Virus record (IMG/VR): IMGVR_UViG_3300030102_001981 | Span: 1-25,735 of that record | Direction: 5' to 3' (one strand) | DNA from: a virus | DNA length: 25,735 nt | Part shown: one piece after another, positions 3,604 to 16,560 of the stretch | Position numbering within the stretch: position 1 is the first letter of the stretch | Layout of the letters: the number at the start of each line of letters is the position of its first letter | Made by a program: the position numbers and the translations under genes | The notes under the pieces: model-generated | The model's database searches: none | The model's input: only the letters and a program-made list of their open reading frames with translations | Told to the model about the DNA's origin: nothing

Positions 3604-5102
3604 ATTGGATAACTCATGTCAAATGATTTTGGTTCAACAACATGTAATTGTTTCTTTGCTCTTGTTGCTCCAACGTAAAATAATCTATTCTCATCGTCTG
3701 GAGTTTTTTCAAAGTTACGCATTGTGTTTTCTGTAAGATCACTTAACAGTACAACATTATCACATTCACCTCCTTTCATACCGTGTATGGTTGATAATTT
3801 TATTCTAGGTTCTTGTTTCAATAATTCTCCATTTCTTCTCATTGCTCTTATATACTCTTTTGTTTTAAAATCAATCTCATCCAACGATTCATACCAAACA
3901 TCTTTTGTCTTTAATCCATAATCATTCATGCAATCTTCAATAATATATGTTTGTTCTTTTAGTAATGTCTTTCCTAATTTATGTGCTTGATTAATTTTAT
4001 TAGAACTCATGTGTCCATAAATATTTTTTACAGAATCATAATTTAATTCTTGACCTTTACGCCAATGTTCCCAATCTGTTATAGCTTTGAAAGTATCTTC
4101 GTTTATTGATTTTTCATTTTTAAAATTATAATACCAACCACGCTCCTCGCAAAAATCTTTAGTATCTTCTAATAAATATTTTGTTCTAGCTAATACTAAC
4201 CACTCACCCGATGACATATCTAGTTGTTGTATGTCACCATGATACCGTAATACTCCTTCTGAACTTTTTGGTTTCCATATTTTATCACGTCTGTTTGCAA
4301 TTCTATTTGCTAGACCAATTGATAAGTTGTGTATATCACCTGAAGGTACACGGTAAGACTGATCTAACACTATTGTTTTTCCTTTCAATGCTATGAACGA
4401 ATCAACATCTGCTCCTGCCCATCTAAATATAGCTTGATCATCATCTCCTGCTACAAATACCTGATCACACTTACTCCACATTTGTTTGACCATCTTCCAT
4501 TGTAACAAACTAAGATCCTGTGCTTCATCTATAAACATAACATCTAACTTTGGTGCCACATCTTTTTGTGTAAATTTTAAAATCATATCTGTGTAATCAA
4601 TCAAACCTATTTCTTTTTTATATCTCTCAAGTTCATTGGCTATGATAATTAGTTTATCTCTCTCTATATCTGCTTCGTGTTCATTTAAATCAAACTGTTC
4701 TTCAACAGGTATCCCTCGAACTCTAGCAAGAGATATTAAATTTAAGTAATCACTATCCGATGAAAAGTATCCACCGAAATCATCTTGATATGATGCGTAA
4801 GCTACTGAAAAACCTAGTTTTTTTCCAAGGTCTTGATAGTGAAATTTTTTCATAACTTGATTTTTATTTATTGATAATCTTCTAAATGCAAGTGAGTGTA
4901 GTGTTCTAAAATATGGAAGATCATCCTCTGACAAATTAAATTTATGCATCGCTCTTGATAATGCTTCGTTTGCAGCCTTTCTTGTAAAAGCAAAGTAACC
5001 TATCCTACTTGGATGTATTTTCTTTGATAGGTATTCTTCGACAAGTGATAATAATTTTTCTGTTTTACCTGTACCAGGTGGGCCCAGTATTATTGTAATC
5101 AT
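3600..5102 (-). CDS. UvrD/Rep-like superfamily 1 DNA helicase
   Basis: A 500-residue SF1A helicase with its motifs in order: Walker A GPPGTGKT (7-14), Ia AFTRKAA (38-44), II DEAQ (192-195), III GDDDQAIFRWAGA (219-231), IV QSYRVP (248-253), V STIHGMKG (437-444) and VI NRLFYVGATRAKK (472-484). It hydrolyses ATP to move 3'-5' on single-stranded DNA and would unwind duplex for the polymerase. At 500 residues it is much shorter than UvrD (about 720), so the 2B and C-terminal regions are reduced. It is the only canonical DNA-unwinding helicase here, with no DnaB- or T7 gp4-type hexamer visible, so it may be the replicative helicase. It starts in a TAATG junction with the primase gene. Confidence 0.95.
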   Translation of the reverse strand: MITIILGPPGTGKTEKLLSLVEEYLSKKIHPSRIGYFAFTRKAANEALSRAMHKFNLSEDDLPYFRTLHSLAFRRLSINKNQVMKKFHYQDLGKKLGFSVAYASYQDDFGGYFSSDSDYLNLISLARVRGIPVEEQFDLNEHEADIERDKLIIIANELERYKKEIGLIDYTDMILKFTQKDVAPKLDVMFIDEAQDLSLLQWKMVKQMWSKCDQVFVAGDDDQAIFRWAGADVDSFIALKGKTIVLDQSYRVPSGDIHNLSIGLANRIANRRDKIWKPKSSEGVLRYHGDIQQLDMSSGEWLVLARTKYLLEDTKDFCEERGWYYNFKNEKSINEDTFKAITDWEHWRKGQELNYDSVKNIYGHMSSNKINQAHKLGKTLLKEQTYIIEDCMNDYGLKTKDVWYESLDEIDFKTKEYIRAMRRNGELLKQEPRIKLSTIHGMKGGECDNVVLLSDLTENTMRNFEKTPDDENRLFYVGATRAKKQLHVVEPKSFDMSYPI

Positions 5103-6622
5103 TAAAATGCATCCTCTTCTTTATACTTTGGTTTATCAAAGGTAGCATTTTGTTTTTCCATAGCCTTCATTACCCACACTCTAACTCTCTTACCGTCTAT
5201 GTTTAAAGTTTTTTCTGTTGTACTAAATATATCTTCTATCATTGAACCTGTCTTTCTAATATCAAATGACCATTTCTGTCTTTCTAAAAATTTTTTTAAA
5301 TCTTTCCATCTAAACATGGTTTCACCATCAGCAGTATATGGCACCCCTCGAAGTATATCACTCTTTTGTCTACCTTGTGCTCTTCTAACTGCAAAGTCTT
5401 CAATCAAATCTTCTAACTGATTTTTAATTAATAAACTTTCAGGTGGTTCAATTATCTGTATTGCTGAAAACAAAACTCTTAACAAAGTATCCCACTGTCT
5501 ATCTGATACTCTAGGTATAATCATATTTAATTGTTCCATGCATGCTTTTTTAAATCTAGCTTGTATTTGTAAATCGTCTGTTTCTAATTCTAATCTTTCT
5601 CCATCAACATTAACAAACCATTGTGGTTGTGGCTTATGATTTATTTTTGTTAGGTTGCTTATTTCAGGTAGCGCTGTATTACCATATCCAATACCATGTT
5701 TCCTTGTCCTACATACTTCTCTATTACAAAAAGAATTTATTGGTTGTTCATTACACCCATAATTATAATCTTTTTTACGTAATGATTTTTTTACATTCTC
5801 TACTTCTGCATTACTAAGTGGTGGATTTAAATATTTTCTATTGTAATCCTCTATTAAATTCTCCCACTCATCGGGTGCAGATTTTTTTAAATACACTCCA
5901 ATATTATATAGTCCATTATTTCTAGTCCCTTGCGGAAAGCCTTGTGAACAAAGAACCTCTAAACAAGGTGGCCCATTAGATACTGCTTTAGCATTGTCAT
6001 TTAATTCTACTTTTATTTCAGATAATTTTGTAGGTTCTACGCCATATTTTTCATACATAGAATAGAATGATTCTAAACTAGCAGCAGAACCATCATCATT
6101 AATAGCGTATTTAGTACCTGTTTTATGCTTGTAGTATGGTAGACTACAGAAGTTACCCCTATCGTTTGTCTCTACGTTAATTTTAGTTTGCTGTGGAAAT
6201 ATTTTATCTTTTCTAGTTACAAGTCCAAGTGATGCTGTAAGACTTAATAAGGTTTGTCTCATGTCTTTTGCATCTACAAAGTCTTTTGTGAATAAATATA
6301 GGTGTGCTCCACCACTTGTTGACCTGCAAACAATGAGAGGTATCTTTAAATCTCTCATTCTTTGTGTAAATTCTTTATGATTAAATGTGTATTCGTCTAT
6401 GTCTATTGCACCCCACTTACATTTATTTTCTTCATTGATTGGTACAATACCTAAATTATCTCCAGTGCCATCAAGATGACCCTGTACTATTTCTTTTGTT
6501 AATTCTTTTTCAACCCAACGATGACTTGACTCTACCTTACCCTGTTCGGATACATTCCCTCGTTTAGTTAAACCATAACCAAGACGTAAGCCTTGAAATA
6601 TTTCTATAAATTTCTCTACCAT
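5102..6622 (-). CDS. AEP-type (TOTE-like) DNA primase with zinc motif
   Basis: The 506-residue product has an N-terminal archaeo-eukaryotic primase core: the metal-binding hhhDhD motif AIDID with D74 and D76, the sGGxH motif SGGAHLY (103-109, H107), and KIFPQQ (140-145) followed by RGNF (155-158), as in TOTE-type primases. A Cys cluster at C290, C299 and C304 with H309 (pattern C-x8-C-x4-C) probably binds zinc. The C-terminal 170 residues look helical and lack Walker motifs, so no helicase is fused. It would make primers, or act as a primase-polymerase, for the neighbouring family A polymerase. Its ATG lies only 8 nt after a GC-rich hairpin and lacks an obvious Shine-Dalgarno sequence, suggesting structure-controlled expression. 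Confidence 0.85.
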   Translation of the reverse strand: MVEKFIEIFQGLRLGYGLTKRGNVSEQGKVESSHRWVEKELTKEIVQGHLDGTGDNLGIVPINEENKCKWGAIDIDEYTFNHKEFTQRMRDLKIPLIVCRSTSGGAHLYLFTKDFVDAKDMRQTLLSLTASLGLVTRKDKIFPQQTKINVETNDRGNFCSLPYYKHKTGTKYAINDDGSAASLESFYSMYEKYGVEPTKLSEIKVELNDNAKAVSNGPPCLEVLCSQGFPQGTRNNGLYNIGVYLKKSAPDEWENLIEDYNRKYLNPPLSNAEVENVKKSLRKKDYNYGCNEQPINSFCNREVCRTRKHGIGYGNTALPEISNLTKINHKPQPQWFVNVDGERLELETDDLQIQARFKKACMEQLNMIIPRVSDRQWDTLLRVLFSAIQIIEPPESLLIKNQLEDLIEDFAVRRAQGRQKSDILRGVPYTADGETMFRWKDLKKFLERQKWSFDIRKTGSMIEDIFSTTEKTLNIDGKRVRVWVMKAMEKQNATFDKPKYKEEDAF

Positions 6623-6630
6623 ATATAAAA

Positions 6631-6662
6631 GTGGGCGGATCCACTCTCGCTTAACCGCCCAC
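6631..6662 (-). promoter_or_regulatory. GC-rich hairpin just upstream of the primase start
   Basis: GTGGGCGG at 6631-6638 pairs perfectly with CCGCCCAC at 6655-6662 across a 16-nt loop. In the transcribed (minus) sense the stem is followed by TTTTATAT and then the primase ATG at 6622. The stem is unusually GC-rich for this genome and sits in one of only two gaps of about 50 nt. It could be a partial intrinsic terminator, an RNA-processing or stability element, or a translational control site. The U-run is only four long, so complete termination is unlikely and the essential genes downstream argue for read-through. Confidence 0.7.
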
Positions 6663-6676
6663 TACCTAGGATTCGT

Positions 6677-7489
6677 TTAATATGGTGAATCAGATGTTGA
6701 TTCACTGACCTTATCCTCTTCGTACTTAGCACTAACTGCACCCTTAGAGACACCCTCTGAGAATTCTTTTGCAGTTTTGTAAGCATTTGGATCTGTCAAT
6801 GGCCCAACTTTTGTAATACTCCAATTATAAAACTCACCCTTACTGTTTGATTGTAAGACAGTTTTTAAATTGTAAACATGACTAAAAGCAGGCGGCTTTA
6901 TGATACTGCCATCTTTTTTCATATGCTTGTTACTTGTGATCATGGTATTCCACTCTCTACTCTTTACAAGCTGTGAAAATGACATTGCTATCAAGGCACT
7001 TTCAGTAACCATATTACCATCTAACATCAACACATAGTGATTAGCAGTATTAGATAGATAGTTACCACTAGGTAATCTATCTTTTCCTAACTGATCTCTA
7101 GTTGTTTTTGTTATGATATCACTGTTAGCAGGATATGTAGCGACAGGTGCGCTGTCACCTTTACCTCTATCTTGCCACTCTACGAACTCTCTTTTGTAAT
7201 AGCATCGTAGAACATTGATACCTTTTCTGCCATCGTAAAGTTTTTTAGACACAGAGTTAATAATCATACCAGGTTTTGCACCTTGTATGTATTCCCCTTT
7301 GCCCTCTTTAACTTGTGGAGATAGATCTTGTAAGATTCTTAAAAATGGAATCTTAACATCTTCTGATCCTACATTCTCCATGCCCATACCTGCATCTGCT
7401 TCAAACATTGCAGTAAGTTCACTAGGCAGATTTGCTTCTTTTTTCGCTAGTTTCTTTTCACTAGTATCTGTCATTGCTTCTTGACTCAT
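6677..7489 (-). CDS. Hypothetical phage protein, possible ssDNA-binding/recombination-associated (270 aa)
   Basis: A 270-residue protein with a charged, disordered-looking N-terminus (1-20) and an acidic, Ser-rich C-terminus (DKVSESTSDSPY). The core includes the pattern DVKIPFLRILQDLSPQVKEG (44-63) followed by YIQGAKPGMIINS, which I have seen in many phage proteins lying next to replication and single-strand-binding genes but without an established function. An acidic C-terminal tail on a beta-rich core is compatible with a single-stranded DNA-binding protein, and the position before primase, helicase and polymerase fits. This is inference, and I see no diagnostic OB-fold motif. The start codon is ATG at 7489, 2 nt after the stop of the upstream gene. 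Confidence 0.85.
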   Translation of the reverse strand: MSQEAMTDTSEKKLAKKEANLPSELTAMFEADAGMGMENVGSEDVKIPFLRILQDLSPQVKEGKGEYIQGAKPGMIINSVSKKLYDGRKGINVLRCYYKREFVEWQDRGKGDSAPVATYPANSDIITKTTRDQLGKDRLPSGNYLSNTANHYVLMLDGNMVTESALIAMSFSQLVKSREWNTMITSNKHMKKDGSIIKPPAFSHVYNLKTVLQSNSKGEFYNWSITKVGPLTDPNAYKTAKEFSEGVSKGAVSAKYEEDKVSESTSDSPY

Positions 7490-7491
7490 TG

Positions 7492-8079
7492 TTATTTACT
7501 CCTCTTTATTTTGGTTTGGTTTCCTACAAACATGTTAAATAGTTCGGAAGGCACCTCAAGTCCTTTTTCAAGGCGCTCCCTAAATGCAGCAACAAGGACT
7601 CGGTTATGAACATCTACCTTTTGCGTAGGTAAATAACCTTTTTGCTGTGCAAGGCTAGCGTATTCCACTGCCTTGTTATCTTCGCCACGACCAAAGGAAA
7701 CTGTGATATTGTTTTGAATAATATCACCATGGCCGTTATCTCGAAGCCAGTTAAACGCTTTTTCTCTACCTTCGGGATCCTTATCCGCTTTAGGTAGATA
7801 TGCGTTAATTACTTTTCTTACTTCAACTACAGTTCCGTCGTGTAGTGTCAGTTTTTCTATACCTTTTTCAGCCAGAAGGTCTGGTATTTCTTCGTAAGAA
7901 ATCTTTTTTATTTCTGCTTTTAACTTGTCAACTTCTTCTACAAGTTGCTCTAACTTATCCTCATATCCTTCTAACTTTTTTACTTTCTTATTTAACTCTG
8001 CTAGGTCACCACCACCTTCTTGCAGAGTATCACTTTGGTCTTGTTCCCAAAGTTTTTCCATATTACTTTCTTTACTCAT
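7492..8079 (-). CDS. Hypothetical coiled-coil phage replication-region protein (195 aa)
   Basis: I chose the ATG at 8079 (MSKESNMEKLWEQ) over the one at 8094 because it has GAGG 5 nt upstream and the usual 8-nt overlap with the previous stop; the longer form would have 200 residues. The product has a coiled coil at about 25-65 (LNKKVKKLEGYEDKLEQLVEEVDKL split by charged heptads), then YEEIPDLLAEKGIEKLTLHDG, FNWLRDNGHGDII and a C-terminal RERLEKGLEVPSELF. This arrangement is familiar from replication regions of T7-like and other phages, where the function is unknown. Local GC is about 40-45%, higher than in the helicase and primase genes. It probably acts with its 270-residue neighbour. Confidence 0.85.
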   Translation of the reverse strand: MSKESNMEKLWEQDQSDTLQEGGGDLAELNKKVKKLEGYEDKLEQLVEEVDKLKAEIKKISYEEIPDLLAEKGIEKLTLHDGTVVEVRKVINAYLPKADKDPEGREKAFNWLRDNGHGDIIQNNITVSFGRGEDNKAVEYASLAQQKGYLPTQKVDVHNRVLVAAFRERLEKGLEVPSELFNMFVGNQTKIKRSK

Positions 8080-8464
8080 CTGTACCTCTTTCATACATAT
8101 TAATTGAAATAGGATAGTATTGTCTTTCTTGCCTGTCCCATTTCAAAAGTTTATATTTACCATTGTTCGTTTCAGAAACAATAGAACAAGCTACACCTAT
8201 CATAGCAGGATCACCTGTTAATAACAAGTAATCATCATCTGAAAAGTCTTTTAACATCCTTTTCATTTTTCTAATCATAGGTGCAGGACTAAACATTATT
8301 TGTTTGTCCTCATCTAACAATACCTTAATTTCGCCAAACTCTTGTGCTCCAACAATATTTATTTTTGGTGCACCGTCACGTGTTCCAGGTACTGCTTGAA
8401 TTACATAAACAATAGATTTGTTTTGAAATTTATCGTTCAATGCTTTTGCTAAACTTTCTGTCAT
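8072..8464 (-). CDS. Hypothetical protein, first gene of the leftward replication operon (130 aa)
   Basis: The frame is open upstream to 8560, but that would cross the divergent promoter and the SNF2 gene start, so the ATG at 8464 (MTESLAKALNDKF) is the likely start. The 130-residue product contains YVIQAVPGTRDGAPK, IMFSPAPMIRKM, DYLLLTGDPAMIG and a C-terminal KWDRQERQYYPI. It looks like a compact alpha/beta protein. I recall similar unknown proteins from marine phages but know no function. It lies 7 nt from the palindromic promoter. Depending on which hexamers are used, its mRNA would be nearly leaderless or have a leader of about 20 nt. Being first, it may be an early protein. Confidence 0.85.
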   Translation of the reverse strand: MTESLAKALNDKFQNKSIVYVIQAVPGTRDGAPKINIVGAQEFGEIKVLLDEDKQIMFSPAPMIRKMKRMLKDFSDDDYLLLTGDPAMIGVACSIVSETNNGKYKLLKWDRQERQYYPISINMYERGTDE

Positions 8465-8470
8465 TTCTAC

Positions 8471-8503
8471 TTGACATATAATACATCGTAAATTATATGT
8501 CAA
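8471..8503. promoter_or_regulatory. Perfectly palindromic divergent promoter/operator
   Basis: The only divergent gap in the window (8465-8518) holds a 33-bp inverted repeat: TTGACATATAAT at 8471-8482 and its exact reverse complement at 8492-8503, with a 9-nt spacer. Each arm gives a consensus -35 TTGACA for one direction. With a 17-bp spacer, the opposite arm supplies TATATG as -10 on both strands. Each arm also contains a consensus TATAAT hexamer that could act alone. Transcription would start the replication operon leftwards and the SNF2 unit rightwards. A dimeric regulator could also bind the dyad. Confidence 0.8.
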
Positions 8504-8518
8504 TACAAGAAAGAAAAA

Positions 8519-9979
8519 ATGTTTAAATATAAATTTAAAACTAAACCGTTTGAGCATCAATTAATTGCGCTTGAAAGAAGTGCTTTTGAAAAAAATTTTG
8601 CGTTGTTTATGGAAATGGGTACAGGTAAATCTAAGGTATTAATAGATAACATTTCTATATTGTATGACAACGGAAAGATAGATGGTGCATTAATTATAGC
8701 ACCTAAAGGTGTATATAAAAATTGGTATTCAGAAGAGATACCAACGCATATGCCTGCTCATGTAAAACATAAAATGGTTATGTGGCAACCAAACCATACT
8801 AAAAAATTTAAAAAACAATACGAAAATTTATTAAAAGTTGATGATGATTTGCATATATTTATTATGAATGTTGAAGCATTGTCTACTCAAAAAGGTGTGG
8901 ATGCTGCGCAAAAGTTTTTAAGAACACACAAAGCTATGATGGCCATAGACGAAAGCACAACAATAAAAAACCCAGGTGCTGCTAGAACTAAAAACGTAAT
9001 TAAAATTGCTGATGGTGCAGTGTATCGTAGAATACTTACAGGTTCTCCTGTAACTAAATCTCCATTAGATTTGTTTAGTCAATGTTATTTTCTTGATCCA
9101 TTTTTATTAAACTTTTTTTCTTATGTATCTTTTAGAAATAGATACGCGATAATGCGTAGAGTATTAATCAACGGTAGATCTATCCAGCTAGTTGCTGGTT
9201 ATCAAAGAATAGAAGAACTAGAACGTAGTATTAAACCATTTTCATTTAGAGTATTAAAGGAGGATTGCTTGGACTTACCTAAAAAATTATTTATAAAACA
9301 CAGAGTAGAATTAACTAAAGAACAAAGACAACTTTATGATCAAATGCGAACCACGGCCCTCGCAGAACTAAACTCTAAAGTTATGTCAACTAGCACAGTA
9401 TTAACACAGTTAATGAGATTACATCAGATAACTTGTGGTCATATGAAAACTGATAATGATGAGGTAATAGAGTTAAAAAACAATAGAATAAAAGACCTAC
9501 TTAATTTAATTGAAGACATTGATGGCAAGGTAATTATTTGGGCTAACTATGTTCATGATATTCAAAATATTATAAAAGCTATCTCTCATGAAAAGGATGA
9601 AGAGGGTAACTTAAAGTATGGAAAAGAATCCATTGTTACTTATTATGGTGCAATAAACGCTGATAAAAGACAGGATAATATAAAAAAATTTCAAGATCCA
9701 AACTCTAAGGTTCGTTTCTTTATAGGTAATCCACAAACGGGTGGCTATGGTATAACACTAACAGAAGCTAAAGCTGTTATATATTATTCTAATAGTTATG
9801 ACCTAGAAAAAAGATTACAATCAGAAGACAGAGCGCATCGTATTGGTCAAAAAAACAATGTTACTTATATTGATATGTTAGCAGATGATACTGTAGATGA
9901 GAAGATTGTTGAGTCATTAAGAAGTAAGGTTAATATAGCTACTGAAATAATGGGTGAAGATTTAAGAGAATGGATTTAA
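8519..9979 (+). CDS. SNF2-like DEAD-type ATPase/helicase
   Basis: A 486-residue superfamily 2 enzyme of the SNF2 type. Visible motifs: I MEMGTGKS (31-38), Ia LIIAPKGVYKNW (58-69), II DEST (144-147), III LTGSP (173-177), IV WANY (341-344), V GNPQTGGYGITLTEA (403-417) and VI SEDRAHRIGQ (435-444). Two RecA-like lobes fill the protein; no accessory DNA-binding, chromatin-reading or nuclease domain is seen. Phage SNF2-like proteins are proposed to remodel protein-DNA complexes or assist replication and recombination, but this is not proven. It is on the opposite strand to all other large genes and is driven by the rightward half of the palindromic promoter, with a short leader (AAGAAAGAAAAA) lacking a strong Shine-Dalgarno sequence. 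Confidence 0.95.
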   Translation: MFKYKFKTKPFEHQLIALERSAFEKNFALFMEMGTGKSKVLIDNISILYDNGKIDGALIIAPKGVYKNWYSEEIPTHMPAHVKHKMVMWQPNHTKKFKKQYENLLKVDDDLHIFIMNVEALSTQKGVDAAQKFLRTHKAMMAIDESTTIKNPGAARTKNVIKIADGAVYRRILTGSPVTKSPLDLFSQCYFLDPFLLNFFSYVSFRNRYAIMRRVLINGRSIQLVAGYQRIEELERSIKPFSFRVLKEDCLDLPKKLFIKHRVELTKEQRQLYDQMRTTALAELNSKVMSTSTVLTQLMRLHQITCGHMKTDNDEVIELKNNRIKDLLNLIEDIDGKVIIWANYVHDIQNIIKAISHEKDEEGNLKYGKESIVTYYGAINADKRQDNIKKFQDPNSKVRFFIGNPQTGGYGITLTEAKAVIYYSNSYDLEKRLQSEDRAHRIGQKNNVTYIDMLADDTVDEKIVESLRSKVNIATEIMGEDLREWI

Positions 9980-10179
9980 TATTATTAAGCGATGAATTAT
10001 ATCATTTAGTTGAAGTTACAAAAGAGATGACAAAAGGAATAGAACTGTTAAGTGAAGTGGATTGTTTTGATCTTTGTGATATACTTAGACTACATTTAAC
10101 AACTTACTATGATTATCCTATCAATGCTCACGTTATGAAAGATGGTAGTGGTGATTTGTATGGATGTATTTGTCGTTAA
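9970..10179 (+). CDS. Hypothetical acidic protein (69 aa) coupled to the SNF2 gene
   Basis: A 69-residue product, MDLILLSDELYHLVEVTKEM and on to a C-terminal GDLYGCICR, mostly helical in appearance and acidic, with four Cys (CFDLC in the middle and CIC at the end). Its ATG lies 10 nt inside the end of the SNF2 gene, so it is translationally coupled and may be a partner or regulator of that ATPase. Its TAA overlaps, tail to tail, the stop codon of the endolysin gene on the other strand. No family is recognised. The short length lowers confidence slightly, but overlap, frame and spacing all suit a real gene. Confidence 0.7.
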   Translation: MDLILLSDELYHLVEVTKEMTKGIELLSEVDCFDLCDILRLHLTTYYDYPINAHVMKDGSGDLYGCICR

Positions 10180-15098: not shown

Positions 15099-16560
15099 AT
15101 GTTGGACTTACAGATTTTGTTGGTGAATAAACTCTAAACTCGTTATTCTGTATTGCTTTTTGATAGGATTCTAAAGTTGTTATTGTAGTTTCTCCTGTAT
15201 ATTCAAATATAGTTCCATCTGTATTGTAGTAATATGATCCTTTTGTAAAAGCAAAATCATTAAAATCAGGTAATGTTTGTTTTGATTTTTTACCATCATC
15301 ACCTTTTATCGTTGTTTCTTTTGTAGGGATTGCAAACATATTAGCGGCATTTAATGTGCCTGTAGGATCAGTAGCAATTGCATAACCTACTTTTTGAAAT
15401 GTTTGTGCATCTTTTCCTGTAGCATCAGGAAAACCTGCGTTTCTTGCTAATATAGCAGCGTTCTCTTTACCTGCATCTATAAAACCTTTTGTTTGACTTG
15501 ATCCATATGAAGCCATATAACTTTGAGCAGCTGCTCTTGCCTCTGCATCTGTAATTTTATCACCGTATATTGCTTTAAATCTTTGTGTATAGAAATTTTC
15601 CATTTGCATTAATCTGCTAGGGTCTTTTGAAAGTAATTTTGCATCTATTTTCATTTGGTTGATTAACATATCTTTTTCAAAGTCTAATCCTTTTAATGCA
15701 GCAACTCTCTCTAAATCTGCTTTTTCTTTTAATATTTTCTCAGCATCAACTATTGCTGCTTCACCTACAGTAGCTACATCTTTTTTCATTAATCTAAATC
15801 CAGCTTTGGCTGCGGCTAGATATGCTTTTCTTTTTATCTCTGCCTCTTTGGGGCCTAAAAATTTTTCAAACATGGGTATATCTTTACCTGTTAGTGCGCT
15901 TTCTTTTTCAAGATCTGTTAATGCTCCACCAGGATTATTAGCTAAATTTTTTGCAGCTAAATCATCAGCTGTTGCAAAATCGTCTTTACCTGTAGTTTCT
16001 GTATCTTTTAAATCATCTTTAGGTAATTTAGATGTATCAAAATCAGCAACATTTTTTTCTTCTGCTCTTGCATCTATACTTGCTTGTATCTCATCTCTTT
16101 TTGCTTGTCTTTTTTCTTCAAGAACTTCTTTACCTGTCTCACCTAATAAATCTTCTCCTGTAATTGGTCTATCAAATTTAAATCCAAAAATTCCTGGAGG
16201 TTCTTTTTTATCTGTTTTAACTGCAGTTGAACCTGATTCCATTGCAATTTGTTCTGCAATAGAAGCATCACCTAAATTTTCAGATATCATTTTTTCTTTA
16301 GGTTGTAGTACAGATGATAGGTAAGAATCATCAAAGTTAGCCATACCCATAGCAGCGCTAGGTTGTTTCATTTCCAAACCCTGACCTATACCTTGATTCA
16401 TTACGTTAAAACTAGTAGGTGCTTTTGATTCAAATATATCTTTAACAAAAGCGTTACCTGTTCTATTTGGGTTAGTACCAGCACTAAAGTTTCTTCTAAC
16501 TGTTTGCTTAATACCTTCGGCTTGACCGCCGTATTTAAAACTGGGTCTTTTAAAAAACAT
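15097..16560 (-). CDS. Helical virion protein, probable ejection protein (487 aa)
   Basis: A 487-residue protein rich in Ala, Lys, Asp and Glu. It begins MFFKRPSFKYGGQAEGIKQT, a basic N-terminus with a YGG motif that echoes the KGG motifs of neighbouring virion proteins. Residues of about 120-330 are strongly helical (for example EEKRQAKRDEIQASIDARAEE and AAIVDAEKILKEKADLERV) and look like a long coiled or bundled region. The C-terminal part is more beta-like (GSYYYNTDGTIFEYTGETT). By order between a 286- and a 1404-residue protein it would correspond to the T7 gp15 position in an ejection apparatus. This is a positional inference with no motif to confirm it. Confidence 0.82.
   Translation of the reverse strand: MFFKRPSFKYGGQAEGIKQTVRRNFSAGTNPNRTGNAFVKDIFESKAPTSFNVMNQGIGQGLEMKQPSAAMGMANFDDSYLSSVLQPKEKMISENLGDASIAEQIAMESGSTAVKTDKKEPPGIFGFKFDRPITGEDLLGETGKEVLEEKRQAKRDEIQASIDARAEEKNVADFDTSKLPKDDLKDTETTGKDDFATADDLAAKNLANNPGGALTDLEKESALTGKDIPMFEKFLGPKEAEIKRKAYLAAAKAGFRLMKKDVATVGEAAIVDAEKILKEKADLERVAALKGLDFEKDMLINQMKIDAKLLSKDPSRLMQMENFYTQRFKAIYGDKITDAEARAAAQSYMASYGSSQTKGFIDAGKENAAILARNAGFPDATGKDAQTFQKVGYAIATDPTGTLNAANMFAIPTKETTIKGDDGKKSKQTLPDFNDFAFTKGSYYYNTDGTIFEYTGETTITTLESYQKAIQNNEFRVYSPTKSVSPT

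Follow-up and report, generated by a model that had tools for sequence, protein, structure and literature searches.

Introduction

Divergent transcription from pseudo-symmetric DNA is known from the bacterial bidirectional promoters studied by Warman, Grainger and colleagues, to which RNA polymerase binds in either orientation, generating divergent RNAs (PMC12825309, PMC10268837). These promoters have one shared -10 element. Their start sites are most often 18 bp apart, with 10 and 23 bp also common, and competition between polymerases was seen when the -35 element was strong or had been strengthened (PMC12825309, PMC10268837). A strong promoter, Pc, and a very weak one, Pr, are found together on plasmid pLS20. 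They occupy part of a 595-bp gap, at a distance of 462 bp from gene 28, and are run by Rco octamer clusters with looping (PMC8014075). Pc/Pr is the closest overlapping divergent system among those compared here.

HTVC023P-type pelagiphages are described as being among the most abundant ocean phages (PMC9599517), and no promoter mapping was found for them in the full-text literature searched. The whole stretch of DNA analysed here, referred to as the window, covers 25.7 kb of an IMG/VR viral record of 26 kb; the proteins encoded by the window are closest to those of pelagiphages. Between a leftward replication operon and a rightward SNF2 unit, the window contains an inverted repeat, which is read here, with a probability of about 0.85, as a bidirectional promoter made of two complete, overlapping σ70-type promoters that would point apart.

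Results

An inverted repeat in a short divergent gap

The leftward operon begins with a Pam3 gp32-like gene (PF23992; 8072–8464, minus strand). It continues with the genes of Pam3 gp33-like and gp34-like proteins and an AEP primase (5102–8094, minus strand), followed by UvrD helicase and then PolA, to about position 1487. The first gene of the rightward unit encodes a SNF2-family DNA helicase (8519–9979, plus strand), which is 53% identical to its counterpart in Pelagibacter phage HTVC027P and 63% to that of phage 023Pt_psg01. The unit ends with a small ORF that overlaps the end of the SNF2 gene (9970–10179, plus strand) and is convergent with an M15 peptidase gene. As had been noted earlier, and in agreement with the ORF list, the gap between the two units is the only divergent one in the window. 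It measures 54 nt, from the ATG at 8464 (minus strand) to the ATG at 8519 (plus strand), and is mostly occupied by the element at 8471–8503.

The element has the layout TTGACATATAAT-ACATCGTAA-ATTATATGTCAA. Its 12-nt left arm (8471–8482) and right arm (8492–8503) are exact reverse complements, separated by a 9-nt spacer. The description "perfect 33-bp palindrome" in the earlier note holds for the arms but not for the middle, as ACATCGTAA is not palindromic. When perfect inverted repeats were sought with a minimum arm length of 12 nt and a maximum loop of 12 nt, this was the only one in the window, and 20 dinucleotide-preserving shuffles of it contained none. The inverted repeat is confirmed as real and non-chance. 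Further copies of the 12-bp arm, which the earlier note had proposed to look for, did not turn up: neither the window nor its 26-kb record has another perfect one, and matches with two mismatches in the window were at chance level.

Two promoters predicted on the same DNA

Both strands read TTGACA-17-TATATG, so that the hexamers and the spacing previously proposed are borne out on each strand. The -35 element of the rightward, SNF2 promoter is TTGACA at 8471–8476 and its -10 element is TATATG at 8494–8499 (plus strand); transcription would start at about 8505–8507. The leftward promoter has its -35 TTGACA at 8498–8503 and its -10 TATATG at 8475–8480 (minus strand), with a start predicted at about 8468 and the ATG following some 4 nt further on. 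The predicted starts, around 8506 and 8468, were derived from the positions and spacing of the -10 elements and would be about 38 bp apart. The overlap is 2 bp between each -10 and the -35 of the opposite strand, and 25 bp between the two promoter blocks, each of which is 29 bp long. The two promoters thus overlap physically between divergent genes. The TATAAT present inside each arm was also considered as the -10 of that arm, and was rejected because it directly abuts the TTGACA of the same arm.

Conservation of the outline and of the -10 elements

Relatives were collected by five IMG/VR scans with the flanking proteins, which yielded 221 distinct regions upstream of SNF2. The outline TTGAC-N23..28-GTCAA, 33–38 bp long, was found in 204 of them (one of which is listed as 43 bp since its GTCAA is repeated), against 0.15 expected from dinucleotide shuffles of the same regions. 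Within this set, the identity of the SNF2 proteins goes down to about 60% and the interiors of the elements differ widely. The AT-richness of the genome and its many weak promoter-like matches (21 found, 16.5 expected) could have produced a palindrome by chance, with ordinary, unrelated promoters beside it. This explanation is close to negligible, as the repeat is absent from the shuffles, and the conservation of the outline in 204 of the 221 relatives already refutes it.

A -10 element was called when a hexamer started with TA, matched TATAAT at four or more of the six positions and was separated by 16–18 bp from the -35 element. Of 170 distinct elements, 149 had a plus-strand -10 by this definition, 144 a minus-strand -10 and 131 one on each strand, compared with 39.9, 41.3 and 9.4 (maximum of 17 for both) when only the interiors were shuffled; because the relatives share ancestry, such controls overstate independence and the ratios serve as descriptions, not as independent tests. 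The claim that two promoters share this DNA and fire apart is supported by these 131 homologous elements. On each strand, the spacer distribution had its peak at 17. In parts of the 33T, 34T and 36-bp classes, the -10 elements at 16–18 bp were poor, and TATA was found at 14 or 15 bp instead.

Position of the start codons and of the GAAAG boxes

The distance between a -10 element and the transcription start is usually 6–8 nt. Of the 140 relatives with a callable minus-strand promoter, 71 have the minus-strand ATG at exactly 7 nt past the -10, and 108 have it at 6–8 nt. Since the ATG sits where transcription would start, a leaderless mRNA is predicted for the first gene on the replication side, and this would usually be so in the relatives. 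In the window, the ATG is 10 nt after the -10, which gives a predicted leader of about 4 nt. On the SNF2 side, the distance is usually 11–30 nt.

A GAAAG box was present 0–6 nt beyond GTCAA on the right side in 169 of the 170 distinct elements, and 0–7 nt beyond it on the left side in 155 of 170 relatives. The right box of the window (8509–8513, plus strand) is located where the SNF2 mRNA is predicted to start and is also Shine-Dalgarno-like. The left box (8454–8458, minus strand) is in the first codons of the minus-strand gene, 12 nt out and beyond the 0–7-nt range. As the left box often falls within coding sequence, GAAAG is not merely a ribosome-binding site.

Origin of the symmetry

The invariant part of the element is restricted to the outer pentamers TTGAC and GTCAA. 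When a dyad was sought at the homologous gaps, as the earlier note had advised, these pentamers were kept in 204 of 221 regions, but the perfect dyad was not: perfect arms were 5–7 nt long in 136 of the 170 elements, 10–12 nt in 30, and 12 nt in four. The length of the element varies from 33 to 38 bp among homologues.

The interior was examined with chimeras in which left halves were joined to the right halves of other members of the same subclass. The interior mirror matches of real and chimeric elements were 5.61 and 6.12 in subclass 34A and 4.17 and 4.55 in 34T. They were 4.14 and 4.25, 7.10 and 7.31, and 2.56 and 2.81 in the 33-bp sets, and 5.22 and 5.53 at the small-terminase (terS) site presented below. 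In none of these six within-subclass sets did the real elements exceed the chimeras. A slight symmetry of the interior was apparent when length classes were pooled; it disappeared within subclasses.

These results bear on the proposal, made in the earlier note, that the dyad is mainly the operator of a dimeric repressor closing both promoters together, and hence a decision point. Two-fold symmetry and overlap with both promoters would suit such an operator, as would the 30 distinct elements with arms of 10–12 nt. A dimer operator is nevertheless expected to keep its half-site spacing, which the variation in length contradicts; the mirror matches are no higher than those of the chimeras in every subclass, so that no symmetry is conserved beyond the promoter hexamers; and some relatives keep the promoters without the dyad. 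No HTH or repressor family was found among the flanking proteins tested next to the gap (26-kb genome fragment, some window proteins scanned). Neither the repressor reading nor the decision-point reading is supported, and an operator function is quite unlikely. Two overlapping promoters account for the symmetry otherwise: since interior matches do not exceed the chimera controls, it stems from both strands needing the same hexamers. That it is a by-product is also indicated by the conservation of the outer pentamers only and by one relative with an inverted element.

Natural variants

This inverted element is that of L154. It is turned round with respect to its tree neighbours L195, L128 and L145, and to L170 and L175, while the flanks are not. 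Its interior matches those of L195, L170 and L175 at 20 of 22 positions in reverse and at 6 of 22 in the forward direction. Such an inversion of the block is what equivalence of the two directions would predict. Repeated inversion was also considered for the orientation phases of the 37-bp class; with six changes on the tree they are suggestive only, as elements are also replaced wholesale.

The SNF2 proteins of L204 and L207 are about 95% identical and the interiors of their elements are unrelated, from which it follows that the whole element is also exchanged, as a cassette. L231 and L238 likewise have closely related SNF2 genes and entirely different element interiors. Compared in sequence, these two pairs suggest cassette replacement or recombination at the SNF2 gap.

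The earlier note had staked its case on promoters not persisting in homologous gaps that lack the dyad. In part they do persist: relatives of the L286 type, which is also that of L026–L028, have two separate promoters and no dyad common to both. The element is missing upstream of SNF2 in L023, L047, L076, L078 and L162, where the left gene, when measured, is about 199–565 nt away, as if the gap had received an insertion. There is no dyad at the SNF2 gap of HTVC023P. In HTVC027P (MN698241), the SNF2/gp01 gap at the record ends has a single TTGAC and overlapping -10 elements, GTATTATATACC, and has more in common with bidirectional promoters that share a -10. The divergent gap of DSL-LC04 is devoid of the element.

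SNF2 homologues in Rhizobium, Vibrio, Pseudomonas and a spring-water phage, from among more distant phages, were set aside, being codirectional with their upstream neighbour, without a divergent gap. In Luteibacter phage Pluto, the SNF2 gene and a left-gene homologue are in tandem on the same strand. From these gene orders, the divergent layout looks specific to the pelagiphage-like lineage.

A second site at the small-terminase gene

Twelve long records of relatives were scanned for the outline of the element. A second element, of 34 bp, was present in most of them, and several copies separate the small-terminase gene from a small divergent gene. A scan with a small-terminase protein returned 59 distinct upstream regions, 56 of which hold TTGAC...GTCAA, always 34 bp long. 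Promoters were found on both strands in 23 of 23 distinct elements at this site, and both flanking ATGs were 1–3 nt outside the element in 22 of the 23. Loci with the terS site are L487, L488, L490, L499, L501 and L528–L607. A GTTACCTTAAA-like spacer sequence is strongly conserved on the terS side.

In a further context, the element is between two small divergent genes of about 80 aa each (L387, L407, L419, L425, L429 and L477). A ribosome-binding-like sequence, GAAAGGA(G), was observed at the element in these six loci. Only loci without any SNF2 hit were counted as new contexts, namely the same six and L370. The isolate HTVC027P has TTGATATTTAATACAACTTAATCTATAAATCAA at 15947–15979, between gp30 and gp31. 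No second element was found among the divergent genes of the window record. A relaxed search for TTGAY...RTCAA across reference phages gave mostly the control rate, and for this reason the count was limited to copies lying between divergent start codons.

The pac sites of other phages are known to lie at the small-terminase gene. That a second copy of the design adjoins this gene would be consistent with a recognition site for another phage protein, involved in packaging or acting as a replication initiator, the likeness to promoters being secondary. However, the interior varies freely, the copies sit between divergent start codons, and the hexamers, the 17-bp spacer peak and the 7-nt distance from -10 to ATG closely fit σ70 promoters. 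Recognition by another protein is therefore highly improbable as the main function.

Discussion

The comparative evidence for a bidirectional promoter comprises the outer -35 elements, the 16–18-bp spacing on both strands, the near-leaderless left start codon, the recurrence at a second divergent gap, and the loss of symmetry with retention of the promoters in some relatives. In the proposed mechanism, each promoter would have its own TTGACA, and each -10 would be next to or inside the opposite -35. The host RNA polymerase would bind in only one of the two orientations at any time, transcribing the replication operon to the left or the SNF2 unit to the right. The presence of the same hexamers on both strands would account for the palindrome. 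By analogy with published work on E. coli, the overlapping footprints would imply competition between polymerases. It is presumed from the sequence that transcription does occur, from the predicted start sites, with steric competition and an early timing.

A broader proposal is that this is a widespread design of ocean phages. The whole intergenic region would be a minimal symmetric double promoter of 33–38 bp serving two opposed, often leaderless operons. Each initiating polymerase would exclude the other, the output ratio of the two gene sets would be fixed without a regulator, and the symmetric cassette could be turned round or exchanged between lineages and still function. This generalization is tentative, and we consider it possible rather than probable.

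For the relatives of HTVC023P-type pelagiphages, the analysis provides a recurring and comparatively tested promoter layout. It predicts either/or initiation at two gaps, opposing replication genes to SNF2 and the small terminase to a small gene, with leaderless messages. The near-leaderless start codon on the replication side and the recurrence of the design upstream of the small-terminase gene are new.

Small inversions flanked by hairpins are described in plastid genomes (PMC6824564, PMC12928735). Like those described there, the inversion observed here affects a short stretch between inverted repeats that was turned round in evolution; unlike them, it has arms of only 5–7 nt, and what was inverted is a pair of promoters.

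As with Pc/Pr of pLS20, two complete divergent promoters overlap physically. The present gap differs in being about 54 bp long, in having matched promoters and in the absence of any regulator site seen. With the promoters of Warman, Grainger and colleagues, the element shares pseudo-symmetric promoter DNA for divergent RNAs, here predicted from sequence. It differs from them by its two separate -10 elements (8475–8480 and 8494–8499) in place of a shared one, and by predicted starts about 38 bp apart instead of 10, 18 or 23 bp. It differs also by its two near-consensus -35 elements, each -10 lying beside the -35 of the other promoter, and by the near-leaderless start codons. As it has neither the shared -10 nor the spacing of starts of that type, the element is classed as a pair of overlapping divergent σ70 promoters, unusually compact and matched. 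Bidirectional promoters would thus extend from the shared -10 type to a type with fully doubled -35 and -10 elements, for which the inverted and the separated variants serve as natural controls.
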